A stretch of 64,000 nt of DNA from Paramecium tetraurelia (taxonomy: Eukaryota; Ciliophora; Oligohymenophorea; Peniculida; Parameciidae). The stretch is from NCBI RefSeq assembly GCF_000165425.1, contig NW_001799636.1, forward strand, positions 124,001 to 188,000. The letters run 5' to 3'. Numbering within the stretch: position 1 is the stretch's first letter; each line of letters starts with the position of its first letter. Of the stretch, positions 1 to 51,512 are shown piece after piece. The notes under the pieces are model-generated. The model ran no database searches. It worked only from the letters and a program-made list of their open reading frames with translations, and had not been told where the DNA came from. Made by a program: the position numbers and the translations under genes.

Positions 1-1
1 T

Positions 2-880
2 ATATATGTGGAGTTCACTTATGGAAGCAGTATGGACATAATTATTGTTATTGATAACTCTCCAAGATTTTGTTTCGTTAGGTATGTAGAAGATAGATTG
101 GAAATTGTTTAAATATCAGATATAGATTATGACCTGAGAACCCTAAATTCGCTAGTGCATATGGTTTCTTTTCTAATCAACCTTCAGTAGAACTGTAGGA
201 TGATGTCGTCCATTATCTGTTTGATTGATTTTGCAGAACATTTTAAGGATTGAGAGAGGATATCCCATTAGAATTATGACATATCAATTAAATTTAAGAC
301 AAGAATTAAAATTGTTTACAATATATTCCTAAATGTGGTTCTATACATTATATTTAATTCTTTACTAAGATTTTTACAATTTTTCAAAATATACAGCAAC
401 TTATTTTTCAATATACAATTAGCTAATATGGCGTCTGAGGAAATTAATATTCAAACTTTTCTATTTTAGTCTAGGTAAAGGATTTAAAAGATAAAGCGTA
501 TGGGAACAAAATTTAGATAAAAATTATTATTGCATACAAAAAATCAATAGCCATTAATAATGAGTCTAAGCGTCATATTTATAAGTAACATTAGCTTCAA
601 TCCATTTACAATTAGAGATAATAATGATAAAAATCCTCCTAGAAGAGAATTAAAGATAGATATTTATCAGATTATTGTATTTATGTATTAAAGTTGCTGT
701 AACAACCCTTTATCGATATGGGCATTTTTTAATTATGACTCTTATGAAATAAAATTCATGTATCAAAGTATATATTAGAAAAGTAGAGTGAATCATCAAA
801 TGATTCTTGACTAGCCTTTACTATAAGGGAAATTAGAGGTTTAAATCTCTGTTATTTAGCAATAAAAAGCAGTCAATTGA
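2..880 (+). CDS. partial ORF, unknown, frame interrupted
   Basis: Reading TAA/TAG as Gln, one frame is open from base 2 to a TGA at 251 and again from 254 to a TGA at 878. The 5' part runs off the window edge. The first part contains an acidic stretch ending LEIVQISDIDYDL. The second part has a hydrophobic run, near VYNIFLNVVLYIIF, that could be a membrane segment. No intron of normal size removes the TGA at 251, so this is either two fragments, a gene with an indel, or a relic. I do not recognise a family. Another frame is also open at 276-560, so the choice of frame is uncertain. Confidence 0.3.
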
Positions 881-1827
881 TTATGTTAAAATCTGATATA
901 TATATCAATTGAGGCATTATTTGCATAATCTACAAATGTTTTGTTAAATTTTATAAATACCCCAGATTAAAATTTCTCCATTGATATTGTTCTTCGCATA
1001 ATGCACGAAGTATAAAAGATAATTGTTTATATTTTTAAATTTCCTGTTACCCTCTTTTGCAACTCGACTTTATATTAAAATACAAATTATGAATCTATAT
1101 ATTATGAAAATACTTTTAAGGATAAAAGTTAGATGCCATCACTTATTTTAACAGTATTAGAATAATGTCTCCAAATCCAGGTTTTAGTTTAAACTTGGTG
1201 AAATCATTTCAGATAAGAGACCACAAATTAGAATTAATATTTAGTTAATAAAAACCCAAATTAGCATCTCAAATATAACAGTACAGAAAATTTGATTATT
1301 CATTTCTCCAAATTTATAAGGAAGAGTTGTTATATTGGTTTAGAAATAAATAATTTTTTCAAAGTGGAATTTACTAGCGTCGTCGTTAAAGTAGATAATA
1401 ATATCGTCTAAATTATAATCCAATTCAGTAAAAGGATTTTGTGGATAGTTTTTGAATTTTTTATGTAAAGCTATTTTCATGATTTATATCAAGTACATTT
1501 AAATTGCTGTATCATTTCAATATATGGATCACCTATATTCTGCCTCTTAAGTCACAAATCAATATGTAAATTTTATTAATTATCATTATATTTATCAAGT
1601 GCGTAGATTCGAAAACTTAGGTTGTATAATGTATTCTCATTGAGTCCAGTCGAAGCATTCATAAGCTTATACAAGCAGCCATTAGGAAAATATAGACAAT
1701 CATTATATTTATCTCTTTAAATAATAGGTATTTATAACTTACTCAATCTCGAAATTCTATTGTTCATTAAATTACACTTTTCCAATAAATAATTTTATCC
1801 CCTGAATTAGCTGATTGACTTTTTTAA
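881..1827. other. unassigned AT-rich stretch
   Basis: No frame stays open for long under the ciliate code and no motif is recognisable. Short protein-like pieces occur near 1130-1330, but they switch frame repeatedly. This could be the decayed or mis-assembled end of the upstream gene. I see no RNA gene here. Confidence 0.3.
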
Positions 1828-3051
1828 ATGGAGATCATAAATGTTTTGGTAAGTGTTTAATTTATGGTACCATCATTAATTTTAGAAATTAAGGCTAATT
1901 CAATAAATAGGTATTCCTCACGACCACTCTTTCAGTTCGTAGGCTTTAAAAAATAGCTTCTAAAGTTAAAGAAAAAATTGAGATAAAATTTGAATTCTAA
2001 AAGGTTCCTAAGCCATAATAAAATGAAATTTCTAAAGCGCTTTATATTTTTATGGGAATAAACTCAATCGGCAAGTAAAATTTTCAAGAAATACTACATT
2101 GAAAAACTTCCTTTCTCAAAAACTGATTTATCTAAACTGTTATAAAACACAAAAAAATTAACCAATTTATTTTTAAGTATTTTATTATATTTGATCATTC
2201 AAAATGCTTTTGTTTATAATTAATTATAGAGAATTAAAAGATGATCTTTTGAAATCAGGTGATTATTCCATATATCAAATGGCATATTTAGCCATCATAA
2301 CATTTCCTTTTGCATATTAAACAATATTATATGGCTGAAGATGAATAAAAAAATATTTAGATTTCCATTCATTATAAGAAATTTACATTGAATTCATTTA
2401 TGTGAATGTAATGATTAGTTAAATCATATTTATAATTTCCTAAACCGGAAATTCAAGGGAGATAGTATATTAATTAATAACAGTTGGTATATTTAACTTT
2501 TTAACTTTTTTCATTTAAAAGGCCAACGAAAATCCACTATTTGATTTACTATTGTAAATGAATTTGAATGGAAATTACATATATCAATTTTGTAATATTT
2601 CTAATGCTTTTGCTAAAATTTACTTTGATATAATATACAAGAAGAATGAGTTGTTTTTTTAATTTGATTCTAACTAAATTGATCCATGGTATTACCTAAT
2701 GTTGTAATTTATGCGATTTCTAATTGATATTCAAATAAATAATTATGATTCTTAATAGGAGCATAAATTACAAATACTAAACAAACTATTAGTTGAAAAA
2801 CTATCTAAATCCTTTTGGAATTTAATGTTATCAAATGAATATTTATTTTTCTGAAAATGAATTAGGCTTGCTTAATATTTTTCAATATTCATAAATTGAT
2901 TGTAGATAAGATTTTGGATTTTCTGAAAAATTGAATGAGTTCTTTTCTCTTGATGTCAATTTAATAAAATATTTAAATTTTGATTATGTTATCAAAATAG
3001 CAATAATAATTGTAAGAGATAGTATCCTAAAGCGTGTTGAAGACGTAAGTT
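1828..3051 (+). CDS. unknown protein, several frame breaks
   Basis: Coding-like plus-strand text is visible in successive frames. A basic N-terminal part contains KKYYIEKLPFSKTDL near 2085-2130. A hydrophobic helix LFLSILLYLIIQNAF follows near 2170-2210. A long clean stretch runs from about 2520 to 2850 with NPLFDLLLQMNLNGNYIYQF and IDPWYYLMLQFMRFLID. The last piece, from 2855, contains NELGLLNIFQYSQIDC. At least three one-base frame changes are needed to join these pieces, and none coincides with a good intron. Start (ATG 1828) and end are approximate. The last reading frame stays open into the kinase gene downstream, so the true stop is unclear. No family recognised. Confidence 0.35.
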
Positions 3052-3054
3052 TGA

Positions 3055-5203
3055 ATGATAATTAGATAAACAACCAAGGTATCTTAGAAATTAAGTTAAT
3101 CATTTAATCCAAATGGATTGATAGGCTAATCTTTAAGTCCAACTCAAAAAACAAATTAAAGCATGGGATTAAAAAAAGGGAATAATTTATAATAGTACCA
3201 ATAAGAATTGCTTAAATTAATGGCAAACCATAAGCAATTATAATCTGGTACTAAAAAAGCAAATCTGTCTGATATGATGACATAATAAAATGGATCTAAA
3301 CGAATATCATCAGGTGCGAGTTAACCTTAAAAATCATAAGACTCAAACAAAACTAGTTTTGTAAATTCAGCCCATTAGATTATAATAATTGTTAATCATG
3401 AAAATTAACAAATTAGATTTACAATTGACCCTCTAAAATCAACAGGATGGTTGGAGGAATATTTGAAATAAGAAGTAAAAAAGCATTCTATTCATCAATA
3501 TTCATCAACAGGATCTTAACCAGATGAAAGAAAAGTAACTTGCGGAACGGGAAATGAGTAATCAGATTTGGAAATAGTGTCTTTTCATACAGTTGATAAA
3601 AACTTGCCAATAGATTAACCAAATAAAAGTTTAGAAATTTTAAATGGATAAACACTAAATCTATAACCATTTTATGGAACACCTTAATAAAGTAAAATCA
3701 CACTTAAAGATTTTATATTTGTAAAATGCATAGGAGTTGGAGGATTTTCAAGGGTTTATATGGTGAAGAAAAAATCAAATGGAAGATTTTATGCAATGAA
3801 ATTAATAGATAAGGAATTCATTCTCCAATATAAAAAATAAGGTACAAAGTAAATCTATATAAAGGGATTGTGCAAAACGAAAGAGACATAATGACAGTGC
3901 TTGATCATCCTTTTATAATTAAATTAGAGTATGCATTTGAATCTAAAAACTTTATTGTTTTTGTATTAGAATTTTGCAGCGGTGGTGAACTATTTTGGTA
4001 ATTAAGATAAGTGAAAAGAATGACAGAAGAATAAGCTCGCTTTTATTTTGCAGAAATTTGTTTGGCTATGTTCTATTTACATTCATTATCAGTTGTTTAT
4101 AGGGATATTAAACCAGAGAATATTTTAATCGATATTGATGGCCATATCAGAATAGCCGATTTTGGTTTATCTAAGCCAAATATGACTGAAGAAGATTATG
4201 CTTATAGTTTTTGTGGGTCTCCAGAATATATGGCTCCTGAAATGTTATTGAAAGTAGGACATAATGTTTAAGTTGATCACTACTGTATGGGAGCATTGCT
4301 TTTTGAATTAGTAACCGGGTTACCTCCTTATTATTCAAGAGATACTGATGAAATATATGAATCTATCCTGAATGAAGAATTAACTTTTCCAGATAAGTTA
4401 AATTTATCACCAGCTATTAAAGTATCGTTCTTCAATATCAAAGGATTTGCTTTAAGGATTATTATGCAAATAACCATCTGAAAGATTAGGGTCAAATAAA
4501 GGATTGACTGAATTATTGACCCATGCTTGGTTTAAAGATGTTGATTTAGTGGCAATCTTACAGAAATAGGTTCCTCCTCCATTCAAACCTAATCAACTAA
4601 AATTTAATTATGACTCGAATGATTTAATGAAAGGTGAGTTAGAAACGAGAGAGAAGCTTTTGGGAAAAGCCGGTCTATCATAAGAAATAAGAATTTTTAA
4701 GGCATTTTACTTTGATGCGTAAGAATAGAAATAAATGAAAACTGAATAGGCCAAAATTTTATAATAGCACTTTATGATGGTTACTTAATAATAACTAGCT
4801 TTAAATTAAAAGTTTAAACCTCAAAGAAAAAGCACTGAACAAAAAGAGTATTAATCAAAACCTGCTTCTCCACAAACCAGGAATCAAAAATAGCAAAAAT
4901 TTACTCCAGAACAGTTTTAATCTCTTTAGAAACGAATAAAATCTTAGTAAAAGTTAGTATAATTTTAGATAATCCTCTATGAGCAATGTATAATAGATTA
5001 GTACTATTTAAAGCCCTGCTTAATCTAAGTTGTAAGGTTTGAAAAGAATTATTTCCTAAAATAATTTCTTTGCAGACAGATAAAATACATTGCCTGCTGG
5101 ATAAAAAGAAGCGAATATTGATTATCAATAATTGTTGTCAAATGTATCAACAGAGCAAATGTTACATAAACGAGTATCTTCCTTAAAATAAAGAAAAAAA
5201 TGA
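3055..5203 (+). CDS. AGC-family serine/threonine protein kinase
   Basis: Protein kinase that would phosphorylate Ser/Thr on unknown substrates. A polar N-terminus of about 210 residues precedes the catalytic domain. Visible motifs are the Gly loop GVGGFSRVY, the ATP lysine in AMKLI, the alpha-C Glu in NERDI, the catalytic loop YRDIKPEN (Tyr for His, typical of AGC kinases), DFG in ADFGLSK, and [12 protein letters not shown]-terminal extension holds FKAFYFDA and a Gln-rich tail ending KRVSSLKQRKK. Three introns fit: 3842-3864 (23 nt), 4422-4443 (22 nt) and a 22-nt one near 4935-4958. Each restores the frame. Start 3055 is the first ATG after an in-frame TGA. If a 21-nt intron at 3045-3065 is used, the start moves to 2986 or 2935. 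Upstream regulator and pathway cannot be told. Confidence 0.9.
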
Positions 5204-37667: not shown

Positions 37668-39112
37668 TCATATTCTACATACATAGGAACTGCTCTATGT
37701 TATATACCTTACCCATCTATGTGGATTAGTAGTATTGCCTCGTTCTTCTATTCTCAAGTATTTGATTTGCAATCTGCTCACATTAAACATTGGTATTTCA
37801 AAATTCATAGCAATAGGACCAATCTCCTTTCTTGCTGTATGAGCAGTCTGAGTTGCTTATAGAGTTAGTTTTATCTAAAATAGAACAGAATAGATATACT
37901 TTTAGTGATCTCTCTTAACCACCACACAGTTTCTTGATCTACCATTCCACAATCTTTTTATTTGAATCATACTCAGCAGTCTCCAATTAAGCATTCTTCA
38001 CTAATTCTGGATATGCATTTGCAGTTTATTTAGGAATTGGAATACGAACATTTGCATATGATGCGATGATTTTGGCATCAAAGCATGCTTTCAATTTTAT
38101 AGTGACTTCTATTTTAGATGATGAGACCTCTTCAATAATGGGAAACAGTCTAAAAGGAGCAGCATAATCTCCACTTATACGATAATTCATAACAACGAAT
38201 TAACCATCAGGTGGTTGTATACGTAAGGTTTTATTCATGTCTAATTCATTAGCATTAACACATTCATGAAAATTGCAATCATCCTTTATGTTATTAATTA
38301 TTATCATACCAAAATGACTCCTGCTGAATACTGTCCTTATTGTCTACCTATTTGCAGATCATCATTCAATGCTAATTTAAGAGGTGGATTGCCTTATAAA
38401 AATGATGTCATTTGAATCTAATATAATATTGAATAGATTACACATCCTTCAATACTCTAATTGATAACATAAGCACTAGAGTTAAATAGAACATTGAGTT
38501 TTTCATAAATATCAACAAAAATTTCATTTGCTTAATTTTTGTTTAATACCGATCGCTAAACTGCTTGACTTCCAATAGTGTTTGGAACAAAAATGTTGAA
38601 TGTTTGAATTTTTGGTCTCAGGGAATTCATGACTGAATCAGGTTAAGGCTGAATTGGGTCATTCACAATGAGTGGTTTGATTTATTCTGTAGCCATGAGT
38701 TGAGGGTAGCCAAAATCAAATGATTCATCTAGAATCTATGAAAAATAGAATATTGCTGACTTCATAGATTAGGATGAAATTCTTTCTAAGGACTTCCTCA
38801 TTGATGACTCCACAGAAGTCTTTGATCTCTTTGGCTAATCGATCCAATAATTCTAAGGACATAGCTGGTTGCAAGTTGAATCTGGACGTGCCTACAATAT
38901 ATAATCCTGTTATTAAGCATGAGAATAGAACCTCCTCTTTTGATGTGAACAAATTAGATGCAATCAACTGTAAATAGAGGATTGGCATCTCCTGAGTAGG
39001 TCTTGGCTTATCTGAAGAATGTTTCAGGTGTTGATTTGGGTAAGTCAGATCTGAAATCTCGATTGATGATGGTGTCACCTCTTGGAGATAGAATGAATAT
39101 TTATGAAAACAT
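37668..39112 (-). CDS. AP-4-type adaptor complex mu subunit
   Basis: Clathrin-adaptor mu subunit; binds tyrosine-type sorting signals on cargo at the trans-Golgi. The N-terminal longin part reads MFSQIFILSPRGDTIINRDF. Then come ELLDRLAKEIKDFCGVINEE and VLRKNFILIYEV, universal in mu chains. The signal-binding domain shows NEIFVDIYEKLNVLFNSSAY, SFLQGNPPLKLALNDDL and the end GPIAMNFEIPMFNVSRLQIK with NPHRWVRYITQSSSYVCRI. The NPHxWVR end is closest to AP-4. Frame changes are needed near 38935 and in the C-terminal half, some perhaps introns. Confidence 0.85.
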
Positions 39113-39135
39113 TATTATATATATATATATTTTTA
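39113..39135. repeat. TA dinucleotide run
   Basis: Short (TA)n-rich microsatellite in the 34-base spacer between two minus-strand genes. Its length is likely to vary and is prone to error. Confidence 0.6.
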
Positions 39136-39146
39136 TTTATAATGCA

Positions 39147-40018
39147 TCAAGCTCTTGCAAGGAACTCTTATACATTATGGACTTCGTTGATCTTCTTTAA
39201 GGCATTCTTAAATGCACTTCTGTCAACCAATCTGTCATCAAACACATATTTGATTCTCTTTTCTCTGCAAAGAATAGGAAGCCATAAGTTTGTGTATCCG
39301 AAGAGTACTCCTTCTAAAACAAAGCGTTTCAATTGTGAGTCTTAGGCAGTCAACACAGCCCATGTATTGCTCAATTTGAATGAGGTTTTGACTTGATCCA
39401 AATAATCGAATTACACAGTCGCCCAACCATGATAATCAATTGGTTATAATTCCCATACAAATTCCTTATTCTTGATGCCAGCAAAAAATTGGGACCAAAA
39501 TCCAGCATCTTTATGGTCTTACAAACTAACTACTACATCGACAATGTTCTAAGTGGATAAATACTTAGCATTTTTTTATAGGTTTGACAATAAGATGTCT
39601 TTATTCACATCCTTTAATAAGGCATTATTTGAAAGCACAAACAATAATTGGGCACTTGTTTCCACTTCTTATCCCCAGTTGTTATTTTGAATAAAAGCAA
39701 TTGCCTCTCTAGCACATTGAGCTGAAAATTGATAATTCAATTATGCTTCATCCTTCAAAGCATCCACTGCATTAAATTGTTAAGCTTCATAAGTCAAAGC
39801 ACTTGCTATCTAAGCCAATGAGAATGCTGTTAATTCATGTCCTAATTTCATATATTCTTTCTGATACCTTATGGTAATCCAGTATATCGATAAGAGGGAT
39901 TATAAAATAGGTTTGCAGAATTAAAGGTCCATCTAGCTGGGTTTATTATTAGTTTGTTAGCACTTGCAAATACTGAGGCACTCACAAACTTAGAATAATT
40001 TTTAAATAATCCTGACAT
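39147..40018 (-). CDS. helical-repeat protein, probably mitochondrial
   Basis: About 285 residues. The N-terminus MSGLFKNYSKFVSASVFASA lacks acidic residues and is amphipathic, like a mitochondrial targeting sequence. The rest is made of paired helices (AQLLFVLSNNALLKDVNKDI; NIVDVVVSLQDHKDAGFWSQ; WAVLTAQDSQLKRFVLEGVL). These recall the octotrico/heptatricopeptide-like RNA-binding helical repeats of protist mitochondria. This family assignment is inferred. One extra G near 39855 breaks the frame after TGLPQ. Confidence 0.6.
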
Positions 40019-40137
40019 TTATATTTATTAAATTCGATATCGTGTATTTTTCATAAAAACAAGAAGCATCTAATTGGGATACTATTGATTAGCCAATTTA
40101 ATAGGTCTGTTTCTGTATAATTTAAGAAATAAATGAA

Positions 40138-41901
40138 TCATTAATCATCCATTCCATCAAATAGATCTTCTTCTTCATCTGAATCTTAAACAGGTACCAT
40201 CCCCAGTTTCTAAGTTGGCTTTTGCTGCATTTACACATTTTTCATTGCATCTTACATCTTCATATCTTTAATTGCCTTATCTTTATTAGGTAATTATTGC
40301 TATTGTTAGTATCTAGCCATATTAGGATCATCATCTTCATACAATTCCTTACCTTCAAACCACTTCTTTTTGAATGCGTTAATGTCTTTATCCTATTATT
40401 TTTCAATAATTTCAGCCAAAGGATCTAATTATACTTCGATTAATTGCTATACCTGTTGCAAATTCAGCATTTCTATTTACCTTAAATGGGTCTACATCAT
40501 AGGGCGAAACATAAAATTTAACATTCTTGTACACATCCTAATAGTATTCATGATATTATTGAAGAGTAATCAACTTTGCCTTTGTATAAAATACATCAAC
40601 TATTTAATCCCAAGTCTTGCAAGCCAGGATATCTTTTCTTATACAAAAGCACATAATTCCCATATTAATAAATATTTCCAATTTATTCTTGACTACCTTC
40701 ATAATCATTTAATCAATATTAAACAATGTTACATCTAAAGGTAAAAATGCAAACCCTAGAGAGTGTACAAATCTCTTTATTATTATGACTAACATTTATC
40801 TTTAAGTTGGACTCTTTAAGTTAAGAACACCCTGAAATTTTAAGGCTAATTCTTCATCTAAAACATTAACACTATTCATAAATAAATCAGTCATTTCTGA
40901 TTCATACTTTTCATCATGTCTCACAATCAAATCGACCAATGGATCAAAGAATTGAACTATCAATTATAATGAGTAAAAGTATCCAATCAATTCGGTTGGT
41001 ATTTTAAGTAGATGTTTACTTGATCCAAAAACATAGACAAGTGGAATACAGATCAAGTATAAATAATCAGTAAGAATTCTATCTTATTTTAATTCGTAGT
41101 AACTCAGAATGGTTTTCATTGCAAAAATCATATTGCCATCGAATTGATCAGGCTTAGTCATTTGTTTAACTATTTGCTCTGTGTCCTTTATGATTTAAAC
41201 ATCAAATCTTGACATTGTTAACATTCTTGCCTTTCCCAATAGACGACTATAATCATCGCTTATTTATTTATTTTCTAAACAAAATTTCCACACTAGCTAT
41301 CTTACATCAGGTGGCAACAGTTTCTTTTAAAATAAATCAAAAATGTCTTTATTTCCCTTATTTTTATTTAGCAATAGTTGAAGTAAGTTCAATGTCAACC
41401 CCCATTTAGATTCTCTCTTTTTATATTATATTATTATATACTGTATTTCTCCTCATATCTTCTAATTTATATGTAATAATCTTTCGAACTTTATCCTTTA
41501 ACTCTATTGCCTCTTCTTAGTGATCATAAATTCGTGAAATCTCTTTAATAAGTATCGATATATTACATCTCTATAAATTTATATTTTCTTTTCATTTGGC
41601 AAATTATTCAGATAATCATTTCTAATATATTAGATCAAAAGTGTTACTCCATAGTTAAACAAAATTTGGATGTTGACAATTTGTACTTCTGAATTATGGA
41701 TTTATATTCATGAGTTTGTTTGACACTTGAGTCTACTTCATCCAGAAATTTCAGCATAACATCCAAATCAAATTTTGTAGGATTTGGTAATTCCTTTTGA
41801 TCCTACTGATATTTGCTCTCAAATTCATAAGGCTATTATGCTTAAAAGTTGCTTTGGTTTAATCGTTCCACTGCACTTTTTGCTAATGATTAATTATTCA
41901 T
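40138..41901 (-). CDS. large helical protein with acidic C-terminus, unknown
   Basis: Starts MNNQSLAKSAVERLNQSNFQ. Helical segments follow (TEQIVKQMTKPDQFDG; LIVQFFDPLVDLIVRHDEKY; CKTWDQIVDVFYTKAKLITL), then HEYYQDVYKNVKFYVSPYDV. It ends in a charged tail KKKWFEGKELYEDDDPNMAR and DSDEEEDLFDGMDDQ. An intron of about 28 nt near 40435-40462 fits. The N-terminal third needs one or two further introns or shifts near 41690 and 41450. The fold looks like an alpha-solenoid. I cannot name the family. Confidence 0.6.
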
Positions 41902-42007
41902 TTAATATATTATTGATAGGTGCAATGAGAATTTTTTATTATGTAATAAACTAAATTGTAATCATAAGTTCTACATCGAAACAATTTACATTTTTAATCA
42001 TTAAAAA

Positions 42008-42366
42008 ATGAAATCTGACTAAGATTTACAATTAGTCTAATTCCATATTATAAACAAGAACTAAAAATTCAGAATTAGATTTAAACAATAAAATGCCCAA
42101 TCAATTAAAAGAAAGTACTGATTTATAATCTGTAAGTTAAACATAAATTGTAATCTACTAAAACAAATATTGTTTAGGATTATTAAATCTTGAAATAGAA
42201 TAATATTATTTCATTTTTGGAATAAGATATTTACATTTAATTCTAGTATGTACACATGTTTAAAAAGGTAGTAAAAATAGCAATAGGAAATAGATTTTAT
42301 AAAAAGTGATTAAGAGAGAAATAGAAATTTAACGTAATATAAATAAATTTATATAAGTAAAATAAA
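42008..42366 (+). other. possible extra 5' exon of the CCCH gene
   Basis: ATG 42008 opens a frame (MKSDQDLQLVQFHIINKNQK). A 22-nt intron (42115-42136) would join it in frame to the CCCH gene. The joined text before 42367 is hydrophobic and less protein-like, so I prefer ATG 42367 as start and leave this as an alternative. Confidence 0.3.
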
Positions 42367-43912
42367 TGAATAAGCAAAGTTTATAAGAATTCAAAGTTAA
42401 TTTCTGCTAGAATACTAAATGTTAAGTAAGACAAGATCATTTTATGCCATTATAACAAATAATATAATGTCAATATTATCATAATAATAGTGATAAAAGA
42501 AGAAACAGTAATAATTATAAGCCAATATACATCTGTGATTAGAATAATGAAGGGAATGACTTTTGCAACAATATTATTGAATATCTATATCATCCTAGGA
42601 TATATGGCACTCTGCCATGCAAATTTGAAAAGTAAAAATAAAAATAATAAAAAACATCAGATCTTAGAATTGCAATGTACAACATTGTCCATTTAAGCAT
42701 GATGAAAATTAAATAAAATAAGCATTTCAATACAAGATATTCACAAAATTAAATTAGATCTTAGAGAGCAAATCAAAGGAGAATGATGTATGATATATAT
42801 TAAAATATTTAGTTATTATTTAATTCTAAAAAATACATTCAACGCATAGAGATCAATTAATTTGAAGATTTGAAGCATGAGTTTAAACAATTTAAGGAGA
42901 TTCGCATGGATTTGATCATGAATTACATTTGCGCTTTTTTGAACTCTTAAGGTGGAATCTTATATATTGGAATCACAGACAAAGGGATAATTTAAGGCAT
43001 TAAAATGACTAGAAAATAGAAGGATGACTTTTAAATTGAATTCGACAATAACCTTAGACATTTTGATCCAATTGTTCTACCAGAGTAAGTTGAATTAATG
43101 TTTGTACCAATATACAAAGATGAACTAATAATGATATAGGATTTATTTGTTATTGAGATAAAAATTAATGTTGTAGATAAAAAATAATTATATTTCACTA
43201 ATTAAAATGAAGCCTATATCAAGAGAAATGCAACAATTAATCAGTTAAAACCAAAAGAAATAAAGTAATTATATTTATTGTATGAAAGAGATTTAGTACT
43301 ACTTAAGTTAATGAGTTGATTATAAATATTGTATATATAAATTTACATAAAAATGATGCTCATAGATCCATAAACAAGGATGCTCAAAACATAAATCATG
43401 AATTAAATCTCTTAGATATCTATATAAATATTTGCATAAATTAACAATCAACAAATGTTTTATCCAACTATCATAGCTTATCACATACTACATTGAGATA
43501 TAAAGCAATAATGTATCATTTCATGTGTTAGCTTCATCAATATTTTATGTAATTGGTGGAACTTATAGTATTAAAATAGTTAAGATAATTCCTCCTCATT
43601 ATAAAGAAAATAATTAAGAACTCAGGTTATAATCCAATATTTTCATTTGATGGAAAAATTCTAGGAGAGAGAGATTCAAAAATTAAGGTCTAAAATCAAA
43701 ATTAATTGAAAAAAATAAAAAAAGATTTCTCGTCACTCAGAGAAGCATTAGAATAAGTAATTAAATTAATTAATTGGCAAAATTTTAGCCATTTAATTCT
43801 TGATTCAATTATAGATCTTAAACTTATTCATCAATTACTGGATAAATTACTAAATTAGATTTATTAAAGTAATAATTTCCAGAAAATTAAATAGATAAAA
43901 ATTCCTAATTGA
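42367..43912 (+). CDS. CCCH zinc-finger protein fused to Schlafen-type AlbA_2 domain
   Basis: The N-terminus resembles Unkempt/plant-type CCCH proteins: FKVNFCQNTKC with CQYYHNN, YICDQNNEGNDFC then EYLYHPRIYGTLPC, and NCNVQHCPFKHDEN. These fingers bind RNA in the known families. One A must be added in the A-run near 42651 to keep the third finger in frame. A 25-nt intron (about 42789-42813) then joins to an AlbA_2 (Schlafen/AAA_4) domain: FEDLKHEFKQFKEI, then ICAFLNSQGGILYIGITDKG with IIQGIKM, and FVIEIKIN. If a 20-nt intron near 43299-43318 is used the protein continues with a helical tail to TGA 43910; if not it ends at TGA 43317. The combination is unusual. Confidence 0.7.
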
Positions 43913-44063
43913 TACATAATTATTTTATTCAAATATTAGGAAGTGATAAATGAAAGATAAAGCGTATTTCACTTATAAAATAAAAAAGCTCGAAGAAATA
44001 ATTATTAATTATTTTATTGTTTAGAAAGTCATAATACTTGAGCAATGGCTGACTTATTGGGTT

Positions 44064-45470
44064 TCAGCATAATTTACTTTTGGTAAATGAAACATTAATT
44101 TTTCTGCCCATTACTTCTTTTCCGTGAAGTAAAGCTGCTCCATTCAATGCTTCTTCTAATGATGATAATCTTACTAATGCCATATGTTTTTATCTAAATG
44201 ATTAGGTATTGTATACTTATCGATGTGGATGAATTTGATAGCCTATACATTTCCAATACCTTTGAATAATTCCTTAATATAGGTATCATCTTCACACATT
44301 TTCCCTTTGATGTTACTTAAATGCAAAGTCTAACTTGGTGGGTTAATAGAGATTGATTTTGCTTAACTAAATCTAAATTATGATTGTTGTGGCATAAATA
44401 CCAAAGTCTATGGAGATTGAAAGGGTAAAGGAAATTATATTTCTTAATAGTTCGAATAAAAGATTTTAAGGTTTGGTAACCAAAAAATGCGTTAAATTGT
44501 TCAAAATGATCTAAAGCATTTTGAGCATGAAGAGAGCTTTCTTCAAATTGAACCCAATGCTGATGTCTTATGTTTAATATAGATTATGACTAAAACATTT
44601 CCAAAGTTTGACAATAAATTAAAAATGTTTAATGGTGTAATATTTTAATTAATGAGACCTCTCATATAAACTACTTTGGATGGTTGATTTTCTCTAAGAA
44701 ATTAAGGTGATACATAAGTATATGGATCTATGTCTTTACTTTTTGATTTATCTTCAACTTCAGGGATTGAAAACATGTAGGAATTAAGATATGTATTTTT
44801 TTCAGAGGAGAATGCAAGCATTATATCTTCATCTACAGGATCATGTTCACAATCATCAAATTAAATGGATTTAAAAGATGAAGATTTTTTACATGAATCT
44901 CCATCATCAATAAATTCCAGCGAAGTTTATATTTTTGAGGGCTCCCATTCATTTTTCTGTTCCTAGAGATCCTATTTATCATTAAAACTAGCTCTTGTTC
45001 TTTCATTTCCAAAGCTAGCAATACTCAAAGTGATATCTGATTATTGTTGCCATATAACAGGTTGACTGTATATTTTTGGATGATATTCTTGATCATAAAT
45101 ATTCATGGATTTTGTGGAATTCCTCTATTTCATCGCTCTATAATCTACGCCTCCTGAATTGTTATTGAGAAATGTTACATTCTGTAAAGTTGAATAATAA
45201 CTAATAGTCATAAATAAAAGTGTACACATTCATTATTGTTTAATCATACAATTAACATCCATTTAATTATTATTAAGAAAACCTTGCCTATTATAAAGTT
45301 GCCATCTCTATAAAACATTTCCATTGTTTGCCCTTCTCAAATATTAAAATTTTGTTCACCTCCCCAAAATTTGAAAAGTACCTATAGAACAAAGAATGTG
45401 GAAGTATTATTGATTAAGGATTCTAAACAATCACTAGCAATACTCTCGTACTCTCATTCTCTGATATCAT
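44064..45470 (-). CDS. PTB/hnRNP-L-like protein with three RRMs
   Basis: RNA-binding protein of the polypyrimidine-tract-binding family, expected in splicing or mRNA control. RRM1: VIVQNPQSIILPHSLFYRYF with VNKILIFEKGKQWKCFIEMA. RRM2: PSKVVYMRGLINQNITPLNI with RHQHWVQFEESSLHAQNALD. RRM3: PPSQTLHLSNI with ALVRLSSLEEALNGAALLHG, ending GRKINVSFTKSKLC. The PTB-type RRM phrasing (QNP, HLSN, VSFTKS) is clear. A polar linker of about 120 residues joins RRM1 and RRM2. Frame changes are needed near 45190, 44545, 44440 and 44180. Some may be unrecognised introns. Confidence 0.75.
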
Positions 45471-46226
45471 TAACACTAAATTAAAATATATATATTTTAT
45501 TGATTGCTATTTCTAAATTATATTTCACAGATCTAAATCCTTGATTTAGCAATTTAACTTATACATAAAAATTGGTTATTCTTCTACTTTCAATGATAGT
45601 GTGGATTATGCATAAAATATGAATTGAGAATTAATAAAGCCAAAATTAGTAAATGTTTAATAATTCAAATAAGAGAATAAGAAATTTATTTGTAAATAAG
45701 TAAGAACCTAAGGACACCCAAAAATAAACACAGAAGGATATAATTTAGAGATGAGGTTTAAATAAATTATTATTTATTATTTTCTAATCTAACTAAATCC
45801 GACCCATTTTAGATATACAAATTTTGAGCCTTACAATTTTTATTTATCTGAAATTGAGGAAATTAGCTTATTTCTAAAATTTGTGGATTACTCATTATAT
45901 GAAAAATGCTATAACTTTTTTAATTGTAGGATTCAACTAAATAGCACTTAAATGTATTAATTTTTTATTGCTGATCTTTGATTTAATACGTTCTATAAAG
46001 ATATATTAACAATTAATGTAGCAAAAGCAAATTTAGGTAATTATACATTTAATAATAGTTATTCGAAAAAATAATTTAAGAGTAATTATAGAAATGGATG
46101 TATATAATTATGCAATAATTCTATATGTGAAATATACTTCTTTATTAGATCAAAAGTACTAATAAAAAATTCAAAGGGGGATTGTTTTCCTTTTTCTTGA
46201 ATCAATTTATACATTGGTCAAAATAA
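45471..46226. other. long AT-rich intergenic region
   Basis: No stable frame on either strand under the ciliate code, no repeat array and no RNA gene seen. It includes the promoter of the minus-strand PTB-like gene and the 5' flank of the next plus-strand ORF. Confidence 0.5.
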
Positions 46227-47215: not shown

Positions 47216-50200
47216 ATGCTTCACAGATTATTTATACTTGCAATAAGTACTTATTCACAGATCTTGTATTCAGAAAGTTTTACAAGCAATTCATTTACTA
47301 CTTCGGAAGGTATTGAATTAATTAATAGAAGAATGGGTGCTTAGTGGAGAGAATTTAATATATAGCGATTGTGGTTCAGTACGACTTTTTGGAGGGAACA
47401 ATGCCTTCGGTCATCGTACATCAGCTACAAAGTTATTTTAATTACCACCTCATCATACAGTTTCAATAACTTTAGAATTTTGGAAGTAAGTAGTTGTTTA
47501 ATCAACATTAGAATAGACACTTGGGATGACGAGAAATTTTTCATTTATTTAGATTAAATTTTAGGGTTCTAGGATATTTATGGCCATGGAGGTACTGACA
47601 TCTGTGGAAAGTCATCTGGGGAATTTGTTGTGCAAATAAATATTATGTAACCCCATAACTTTTAATCTCTCTTTATTTTAATGACATCAAATTTAGATTA
47701 ACAGCCTAATGATGTATTCAAGCTTATATATTTAGGAATCTTGGGGAATAAGAAATTTCAAATTATATATCTATCCATGTCCTTCTGGTTGCTAAATATG
47801 TGTTTCAACAGATTTGAGAGAAGATTGCATAATTTGGAACAACATTGAAAAAAGCCTTTTAAGCGTTGATTTCAATAGCTTTAACTTTGATGGATGGACA
47901 ATAGATTAAGGATATAAATTTACTAGTTATTGCTTATGTAAAGATATTAATTCAATCTTAAGCTATTCCAATGATTGGAGGGTATCTATTAACTGGGGAA
48001 AATAGTTATATGTTCAAAACTATTAATTTATCTGCCCATAGCCAGATTATTATTTAATTCAGATTTATTTTCTTAGATTCTTGGAATGCTAAACATGCGT
48101 ACTTATATATAGATAATAACGTGATTTGGACAGAAACCTATGACTTCAACAATAGATAAATTTAGGATTTATGTGGTTGGATTTATGATGATAAACCATT
48201 TAATGTTTAAATTACAATGCCTCATACAGGATCATCAATAACATTAAACTTCACTACAAATTTAAATTAGGGTCTGTAAAATGAATCATTTGGAATAAGA
48301 GACATATAAATATTTATTGGTAATTATTTGTTTACATTTTAGCCTGTCTTTTTGGTTCCTCATTTAATCAAGCTTGTGGAACAATTTGTGGAAATGGAGT
48401 TATAGAATAGTATGAAGAATGTGATGATGGCAATATATATTCTTTTGATGGATGCTTCAATTGTTAATATTCTTGTATTGAAGGATGTTCAAATTGTATT
48501 GATGGAATTTGCTTTGAATGTTCTATTGGATGGTCATTTGGTCCTAATTTTAACACATGTACTCCTATTGCTAATGATGAGAAATACTCAATATGGGAAG
48601 AGTGTGATGATCTCTTAAATTTTGAAATTTGTAAAAACGGAAAATTTATTACTCCATCAAATTGTTTATCCTACTAGTTTGGTATCTGTTTTAAGTGTTA
48701 AGTAAATTATGAATTAATCAATAACAAATGTGAAGCTGTTTGTTAAAATTAAGCAATCGTTAATGATATAGAATGTTTAGATAATAATTTATATGCTCTT
48801 GATAGATGTCATTAATGTGCTTATGATTTAGATGAAGGGTGTAGAATTTAATAAAATGGAGTTTGTATTTAATGTTTAGATGGATGGAAATTTGATATGG
48901 TAACTGATATTTGTACTCCAATTTGTGGTAATCACATTATTGAAGGACCTGAAGAATGTGATATTAATATAAATACAAAAAGTTAATTTGGATGCTAATA
49001 ATGTTATTTTGATTGCCAATATGAATGTACAGATTGTTAATTTGGAATCTGTCATGATTGCATTTCAGGGTGGAAATTAAAGAATTAATAATGCGAATCT
49101 ATTTGTGGAGATAATCAGATTTAATTTATAGATGAATGTGATGATATGAATAAAATTAGATTTGATGGTTGTTATAATTGTAGAAATGATTGTTAAAGAG
49201 AATGTTCCTATTGTTTTAAGGGTGTGTGTTTGGATTGTATTTATGGTTGGCATTTGACTGCCTATTTCACGTGCGAATTTGAATGTGGAGATTCTTAGAT
49301 TGCTTTAATCTCATAAGAGGAATGTGATGATTCTAATGATATGTAATTAGATGGATGTTTTGGATGTAAAATTGAATGCTGTCGTTATTGTACTCAATGC
49401 ATATATGGAATTTGTTATGATTGCGAATATACATTTACATTGATTAATTAAGAATGTAATTCTGTTTGTGGAGATGGATTAGTTAGTGCTGAATATGAGT
49501 AATGTGATGACATGAATAGAATACCTTATGATGGTTGTTATAATTGCAATTATTAATGTAGATAGTTTTGTAAATTATGCATTTAAGGAGTGTGTTATGA
49601 TTAATGTGAATAGGGGTATTATTAGGTTGATAATGTATGCTACCCGATTTGCGGAGATGGAATAATAGTCGAAGAAGAAGACTGCGACGATTAAAATGTT
49701 GATAAAAGTGATGGATGTTTTAATTGTTTTTTCTATTGTCCAGATCATTGTAATGTATGTGCACAAGGAAAATGTAAAGTATGTGAATAAGGATATGAAT
49801 TAAATAAGGGTTTAAATGAATGTTTCACACTTTGTGGGAATGGATTAGTTTCAATTGAAGAAGAATGTGATGATATGAATTAATAGAATGGGGATGGATG
49901 CTCTTCATTATGCACAATAGAAACAAATTATGTTTGCAAGAACTTTTTATATTCATTTACTGAATGTATATATATAAGGTACCCTAAGTTTGAAGCTTCA
50001 TTAATAAGATAGGATTACTCAATTTAATATGTTTCTTTACACTTTGACTAATAGGTTAAAATTCTAGGAAATAAAAATTTTTCAGGTTAAATTCAATTCA
50101 ATTTAGTTGGAGTTGATTTTGAACTTTATAATATCACTTTGATGATAGTTTAAGAAGTGTAATAATATTGTACCTTTGTAGAATATATGGTTGCAATATA

Positions 50201-51512
50201 AATTAATACCACGCTGTTATCTCACCCTATTCTTGAAGTAATATTAAAGGAATAATTGTACAATGAAAATGAAGCACCTTTGATTAATCAGATTGATAAG
50301 GTTAAATTAAATCTTCCCAAGTACATTGTTGATAAAAAAAAATAATCTGCTTAAGTCTTAAAAAATGTGGGAACTAATATTATGAAATCTATTGGTGGCA
50401 TGGGTATTCTCATGCTACTTATTGGTCACTCATTTGGAGGAATTATTGAAATTCTCTAATAATAGTCATATTTGAAATTCATTAATGTAGTATTTCCCCT
50501 TAATTTATTCATATATTTTGAATCAAGCAATATTATAACAGTTTAACCATTATTAGATTTCTTTCATTTTAATTCAGTAGTATTAAATATTATGAATACA
50601 GAGTTTGTAGAATCAAAAGAAAAATTCTTATTTTATGAAATCGATGCAAGTATACTTTTTAATATTTAAGCTTAAATATTCTTAAGTCTAGGCGTTATTT
50701 TCATGTATATAGGTTGTATATTTTTGATTTAAAAATTCATATCTATGTAAAATTTGCATTATTTTTATTTTGGAATTACAGTTGCTTCATATTTTGTGAA
50801 AGTTTAGAACGCATGCTTTATGATAAAAAGAAAATGTGAAAAAGTGGGTTTGATATAATTTTATATAACAAATTGTTGGGATTTACTTTTTATGTCTTTT
50901 TTATAAATTAGTTCATAATCATTTACAACAATTAAATCCGCAGGTTCCATTATTTTAGGATATTTAATCATATATGCTTGTGCTATAATAATATCTAATT
51001 ATTTCTTTAAAGACACAAAATATACTTCATTATCACGATATAATTTAAAAAAATTGGATTTATTTTTAATTTTTAAGAAATTCCTATTTGTAGGAATTTT
51101 AGTGTTGTTTCAAAGAAATTAATAGATTTAATCAATTCTATTAGCATTCGTAAGCAATTGTAGTCTAATATATTTGATTTTATTTAAATCACGTGAGAAT
51201 AAAGTTGATTATTTCAATCAAATAATAATGGAAGCTAGTGTTTTTGTCTTTTGTTCGACGATTGCATTGTATTGGGATTTAATGCAAGAATCCTTTGATT
51301 ATGATAATTAAATTCTACTTGGCTGGTTTCACATATCTATGTTGCTCTTGGTTCTAGTAATCAACTTAGGACTTTAGTTATATACCTTCTTAATGAAATT
51401 AAGAAAAACTTGGATAAAAAAAATGCAAAAACCCTAAAATTAAAGTTCAGATTAATAGAAAGATCCAATTCCATAGTATCAAATAAAGTAAATAGTTGAA
51501 TTCAAATAATGA
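47216..51512 (+). CDS. cysteine-rich surface protein with C-terminal multi-TM region
   Basis: Signal-like start MLHRLFILAISTYSQILYSE. A lectin-like N-terminal domain follows (FGGNNAFGHRTSATKLFQLP, HTVSITLEFWK, then after a 26-nt intron near 47488-47513 IDTWDDEKFFIYLD) with CPSGCQIC. From about 48360 there are at least seven repeats of the type CGDGxxxxxEECDD ... YDGCxxCxxxC ... C..C..GxCxxCexG, each about 150-200 bases. After 50370 come several membrane helices (GGMGILMLLIGHSFGG, LGVIFMYIGCIFLI, LLLVLVINLGLQLYTFL). Belongs to a large Paramecium surface-protein family; ligand unknown. A few shifts remain in the N-terminal third. Confidence 0.8.

Follow-up and report, generated by a model that had tools for sequence, protein, structure and literature searches.

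Unkempt-like CCCH fingers joined to a Schlafen-type AlbA_2 domain in a predicted Paramecium tetraurelia gene: a candidate endoribonuclease

Background

The closest described systems include Schlafen-type nucleases, of which SLFN11 (PMC9482658), SLFN13 (PMC5862951) and SAMD9 (PMC12331169) are reported to cut tRNA or rRNA. In SLFN11 the residues E209, E214 and K216 are described as essential; the D252A change is described as slightly raising the activity, the third Asp being dispensable, and the same source calls Schlafens that lack one of the essential E/E/K residues endonuclease-deficient (PMC9482658). For SLFN13 it is reported that mutation of any of the three carboxylates lowers the activity (PMC5862951). 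Regarding SAMD9, the human fragment 156-385 is described as cutting tRNA alone, and the rabbit fragment as crystallising as dimers, with a bare domain that is inactive without the SIR2 region (PMC12331169). Therefore, a lone domain of this type need not be active. Finally, PUCH of C. elegans is described as a heterotrimer of TOFU-1, TOFU-2 and SLFL-3 or -4 that acts as a piRNA-precursor nuclease (PMC10567574).

Here we analyse a gene in a window of 64,000 nucleotides of the Paramecium tetraurelia genome, "the window" meaning that whole stretch of DNA. Genes in the window are open under a code in which TAA and TAG mean Gln. Read in this ciliate code, the gene runs from the ATG at 42366 through CCCH fingers and across two predicted introns into an AlbA_2 domain (Table 1). 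Among the open-licence papers that were listed, none described, judging from its title and the opening of its abstract, CCCH fingers fused to a Schlafen domain; both terms occur in PMC3710099, where the text concerned uses them for different proteins. The reading that we prefer, to which we would give an even chance, is that the product is an endoribonuclease guided by its fingers, which needs a metal and works as a dimer of chains with a single Schlafen fold each.

Table 1. Features of the predicted gene (positions in the window)
Feature	Coordinates	Strand	Remarks
Exon 1	42366..42631	+	start codon, finger 1, finger 2 remnant, first part of finger 3
Finger 1, residues 14-39	42405..42482	+	C14, C19, H25, C35, H39
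Finger 2 remnant	42534..42569	+	C57 and C67 remain, without a third Cys and a His
Finger 3	42618..42700	+	C85-x7-C93-x4-C98-x3-H102, split by the 29-nt intron; YHPRIYGTLP ahead
Predicted intron 1	42632..42660	+	29 nt, GTA..CAG; 31 nt in the second copy (L005)
Exon 2	42661..42787	+	end of finger 3 and linker
Predicted intron 2, GTATGATATATATTAAAATATTTAG	42788..42812	+	25 nt, GTA..TAG; identical in the second copy
Exon 3	42813..43264	+	AlbA_2 domain exon
SLFN_AlbA_2 domain (PF04326), residues 149-276	42864..43247	+	Pfam 3.8e-20 and fold
Candidate active site	42864..42980	+	E149, E154, K156, D187 (exon-3 numbering E18, E23, K25, D56)
Alternatives for the C-terminal end	43265..43319	+	coding to TGA 43317-43319, or 32-nt intron 43265-43296 and then on

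Results and discussion

Gene model and second copy

The original prediction had claimed that a perfect 25-nt intron joins the fingers to the AlbA_2 domain. This proved exact at 42788-42812, and the in-frame join is kept in a second copy of the gene. Nevertheless, finger 3 can only be completed with a further intron of 29 nt at 42632-42660, which the original prediction did not have. Strings of the form GTA-N19-TAG occur 24 times in the window, against 23.3 expected from shuffles. This is no more than chance would give, so we dropped the 25-nt string as evidence in itself, and the support for intron 2 comes instead from its frame, its position and its conservation. At that frequency, we estimate a chance of about 1% that one such string occurs in the correct frame over a stretch of ~180 nt of this strand.

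The second copy (L005) is located on another contig (C16), with the same join of fingers and AlbA_2 domain and the same downstream gene beside it. Window positions 42296-43332 are 89.5% identical to it. Both introns stand at equivalent places in the two copies, with lengths of 31 nt and 25 nt in the second one; the 2-nt difference in length falls inside predicted intron 1, and the reading frames are intact. Furthermore, comparing the two copies over 843 aligned coding bases, the dN/dS of the joined exons was 0.053, whereas the other two frames gave 1.39 and 1.47. By part, the ratio was 0.085 for the fingers, 0.017 for the AlbA_2 domain and 0.20 for the linker, the last one from few sites. These ratios indicate that purifying selection acts on both the AlbA_2 and the finger parts, and the gene looks real.

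It is very improbable, in our opinion, that the locus makes two products instead, that is, a CCCH-only protein ending in ..SKENDV through the retention of intron 2 and a separate AlbA_2 protein starting at the ATG at 42783. Retention of intron 2 does lead to an immediate stop, this ATG does open the AlbA_2 frame, and the chance frequency of GTA-N19-TAG strings in the window also suits such an arrangement. However, the two frames would overlap, with no gap between the genes, while removing the 25 nt restores the frame in both copies and introns of ~25 bp are reported as typical of Paramecium (PMC5014332). In exon 2, the substitutions agree with the finger frame and not with the AlbA_2 frame, since 5 of the 6 are at third codon positions of the former, which are second positions of the latter. 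For the same reason we ruled out that exon 2 is dual coding, with the AlbA_2 frame read in addition.

Around the gene, similarity to the second copy drops upstream of 42366, and no match was found between window positions 39000-42295 and positions 1-3054 (3 kb) of L005. The downstream neighbour, at 43980-45532 on the minus strand, is a convergent RRM-like gene (RRM_5 at 0.0011, below the cut-off); it is 83.2% identical to its counterpart on C16 over 1,564 columns, in the same orientation. Divergence between the copies is low in two patches, with 6 substitutions in 42680-42873, the identical 25-nt intron included, and 0 substitutions in the 104 nt of 43125-43228. Patchy gene conversion between the copies is possible; a permutation test with 150-nt windows was borderline (256/5000). 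Further downstream, on the plus strand, a frame of 1075 aa at 48285-51509 contains nine DUF4215 stretches (E 3.5e-81) and is perhaps a large surface-type protein.

C-terminal end

The original prediction let the protein run to 43912, and we could not maintain this. Similarity to the second copy ends at 43332, and beyond this point the open frame has a mean coding score of -0.02, compared with +0.04 to +0.10 for exons 1-3, one 150-nt stretch of the extension frame scoring +0.06. No Pfam match was found in 43320-43912, and the sole other match of the extension in the genome was weak (E 0.148). Given the lack of conservation and the weak coding signal, we set the extension aside as unsupported, which is not to say disproved.

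Two ends are then left to consider. Read unspliced, 43265-43319 ends in KLMS followed by a stop, and the two substitutions in this last stretch are synonymous, but the other copy has a 1-nt shift. If 32 or 33 nt are spliced out, both copies have a common frame, but the same two substitutions become amino-acid changes. Thus, the substitution pattern favours an end at 43319, and the frame in the other copy favours the 32-nt intron. The predicted protein would have 299 residues if it ends at 43319.

AlbA_2 domain, candidate active site and fold

An AlbA_2 domain with ICAFLNSQGGILYIGITDKG had been predicted after the intron, and this is how the gene model reads. The Pfam SLFN_AlbA_2 profile matches over positions 1-117 of its 118, with E-values of 3.8e-20 in the window and 2.4e-20 in L005 and scores of 73.0 and 73.7 bits respectively, against a curated cut-off of 25.3. 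Pfam gave only one AlbA_2 match in the protein, so that the second Schlafen repeat of the animal Schlafens was not found.

A phmmer search against the PDB returned 15 sequences at E<=10, which were 14 Schlafens and Unkempt. SLFN14, SLFN12 and SLFN11 matched at E 5.5e-5 to 6.6e-4, the best stretch being the second, catalytic Schlafen repeat, and SLFN5 matched in its first repeat. In the phmmer alignment, E149, E154, K156 and D187 are aligned with E206, E211, K213 and D249 of SLFN14 (SLFN14 numbers read off the alignment). Regarding the fold, exon 3 was modelled with AlphaFold2 using 11 prokaryotic relatives, and the model had a pLDDT of 84.7 and a pTM of 0.82. All the 35 Foldseek matches of this model in the PDB at E<=0.001 belonged to Schlafens (25 chains), SAMD9 (6 chains) or DIP2311 of bacteria (4 chains). 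Their query TM-scores were 0.49-0.62 and their rmsd 3.9-9.8 A; the next match had an E-value of 0.16.

Within the 69 Mb (231 contigs) of the genome that we searched, the profile found matches to the AlbA_2 family at four places, on the window and on the contigs C16, C108 and C208. There are thus three places of this kind besides the window, one of them being the second copy. The E-x4-E-x-K pattern reads EDLKHEFK in the window and in L005, and EDETIEYK in the locus on C108 (L006).

The L006 gene (3151-4668, minus strand) is a different AlbA_2 gene, with an open stretch of 506 aa and a PF04326 match at 1.1e-19. Its domain keeps E-x4-E-Y-K and the Asp and is 27% identical to the window domain, and it is possible that its product is a partner of the window protein. 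A RING-finger frame (zf-RING_2, 1.9e-9) lies upstream of this gene on the same strand. The place on C208 (L007, ~3985-4880, minus strand) is an AlbA_2-like stretch with a partial match, beside a PGYPPQ-repeat frame, and no E..EFK motif was seen ahead of the match.

The 11 prokaryotic relatives, one of them archaeal, came from one scan of genome contigs. E-x4-E-F-K is aligned in 10 of these 11 AlbA_2 relatives, which have no known activity, although this frequency is biased because the relatives were partly chosen by the E..E.K motif. As the motif is aligned in proteins with no known activity, it is not nuclease-specific and does not prove a nuclease alone. Two scans of viral contigs gave no confirmed relative.

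In this respect we have to consider a regulator that binds RNA without catalysis, where the AlbA_2 fold would serve to bind nucleic acid or to dimerise, the RNA being selected by the fingers. SLFN5 is a precedent, as it has the fold and is called endonuclease-deficient in PMC9482658, although ssRNA cleaving by SLFN5 is mentioned in the title of PDB entry 7cux; furthermore, according to PMC5445408, the AlbA_2 domain of SAMD9 had once been interpreted as one that binds DNA. Nevertheless, the deficient Schlafens lack one of the essential residues, while the two copies and the C108 gene retain the full E/E/K set. We consider such a regulator rather unlikely.

Finger module

Three Unkempt-like CCCH fingers had been predicted. 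The likeness to Unkempt stood, and the ligands of fingers 1 and 3 are in place, but finger 2 has lost most of its own. It is degenerate in both copies, and its C57 is a Ser in L005. The pattern of finger 1, C-x10-H-x9-C-x3-H, is that of its Unkempt-like relatives with longer spacing. The Pfam search that the original prediction had proposed, which recovered the AlbA_2 domain, left the CCCH models below the cut-off: zf-CCCH_AtC3H23 scored 6.9 and 10.3 bits against 27, and no other CCCH model was reported. Searched alone against the PDB, the finger part had Unkempt 5elk as its only match, which reached E 5.3e-4 with the fingers of C16 and 0.043 with those of the window; within a longer query, the window fingers matched 5elk at E 0.73.

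Unkempt-like genes occur as a set in the genome, where PF25512 gives 23 matches at E<=1. We examined 12 multi-finger CCCH loci of this kind on 12 contigs (L013-L018 and L023-L028) and built a profile from the 11 three-finger arrays that they gave, omitting L015, which gave none. The arrays were spliced by motif, with no transcripts as a guide, and the profile depends on this choice. It matched the fingers with E 2e-8 in the window and 7.4e-9 in C16, for a nominal 40,000 sequences, whereas no shuffled sequence among 4,000, with all Cys and His left in position in half of them, did better than 0.057. When the closest pair (L014 and L016) was removed, the E-values were 1.3e-4 and 7.3e-5 respectively. 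These matches indicate that the fingers of the window and of C16 are homologous to the Unkempt-like finger arrays of the genome. However, RNA binding by the fingers may be weak or lost, given the degenerate state of finger 2 and the unusual spacing of finger 1.

Another reading is that the protein is a stress or defence enzyme that cuts tRNA or rRNA in the manner of SLFN13 or SAMD9, where degenerate fingers would aid folding, localisation or partner binding. The degenerate finger 2 is consistent with this, SLFN12, SLFN14, SLFN13 and the SAMD9 tRNase domain are all among the 35 best fold matches, and SLFN13 is described as using a CCCH zinc site for folding (PMC5862951). Actually, the finger part is under purifying selection by its dN/dS, and two of the fingers retain their ligands, both of which argue against a merely accessory role; we regard a tRNA or rRNA enzyme of this type as distinctly unlikely.

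Proposed mechanism

We return to the endoribonuclease that we prefer. Its N-terminal Unkempt-like CCCH module, with two intact fingers and a degenerate one, would bind RNA and bring the C-terminal Schlafen-type AlbA_2 domain to it. As there is one Schlafen fold per chain, the working enzyme would probably be a dimer, formed by two such chains or by one of them and a different AlbA_2 protein of the cell. E149, E154 and K156, together with D187 and a divalent metal, would then cut the RNA. We propose a dimer whose Schlafen domain is led to RNA by the fingers, following the single-fold precedents of PUCH and SAMD9.

The original prediction called the protein an RNA-targeted effector, and this is a reasonable suggestion from the sequence. 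It gains from the residues that are essential in SLFN11 and from the likeness of the fingers to Unkempt, and it is weakened by the degenerate finger and by a motif shared with uncharacterised prokaryotic proteins. We advance only tentatively the broader idea of a sequence-guided Schlafen nuclease built by one lineage of ciliates, in which Unkempt-type fingers would choose the RNA and a single-fold dimer would cut it; this is possible rather than probable. If true, the protein would process mRNA or small RNA and would stand beside PUCH and the animal Schlafens as a parallel and independent case. A small protein with RNA-reading fingers of its own and a complete Schlafen site would make it possible to ask, in a compact system, if a Schlafen domain can be directed to selected RNAs, and this in a ciliate amenable to genetic work.

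Comparison with known systems

Among prokaryotes, the AlbA_2 proteins of Vibrio, Pseudoalteromonas and Photobacterium (L035-L037) have the domain at the C-terminus, with 25-28% identity in the best segment. Like the ciliate protein, they are extended at the N-terminus and lack a long region behind the AlbA_2 domain; unlike it, their N-terminal part has no CCCH pattern by eye.

The Unkempt-like tandem CCCH proteins, those of the 12 genome loci included, have the C..YYHN..DKRR and YHPxxYxTxxC motifs in common with the ciliate fingers, which are closest to the L014 and L016 pair (E 1.1e-9 to 4.5e-8). In the window protein, however, there are only three fingers, one of them degenerate, and they are joined to an AlbA_2 domain, whereas none of the 12 contigs with the other finger arrays had an AlbA_2 match.

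The tRNase domain of SAMD9 and SAMD9L has a similar fold and is among the 35 best structure matches. The proteins differ in the rest of the chain, since Pfam gave no SAM, SIR2, NTPase, TPR or OB match in the ciliate protein.

PUCH resembles the ciliate protein in having single Schlafen folds per chain, and its potential catalytic residues are placed in TOFU-2 (PMC10567574). The word zinc does not occur in the available text of that paper, while the ciliate protein has CCCH fingers.

The Schlafen endoribonucleases SLFN11, SLFN12, SLFN13 and SLFN14 share with the ciliate protein, in the C-lobe of their second repeat, the AlbA_2 fold and E-x4-E-F-K with the following Asp. Pfam found no further domain, such as a helicase, in the ciliate protein. 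SLFN13 is described with one structural CCCH zinc site inside its core, which is not equal to the tandem fingers of the ciliate protein (PMC5862951). These Schlafens have two Schlafen folds and a bridging domain per chain, whereas the ciliate protein has one fold preceded by N-terminal tandem CCCH fingers.
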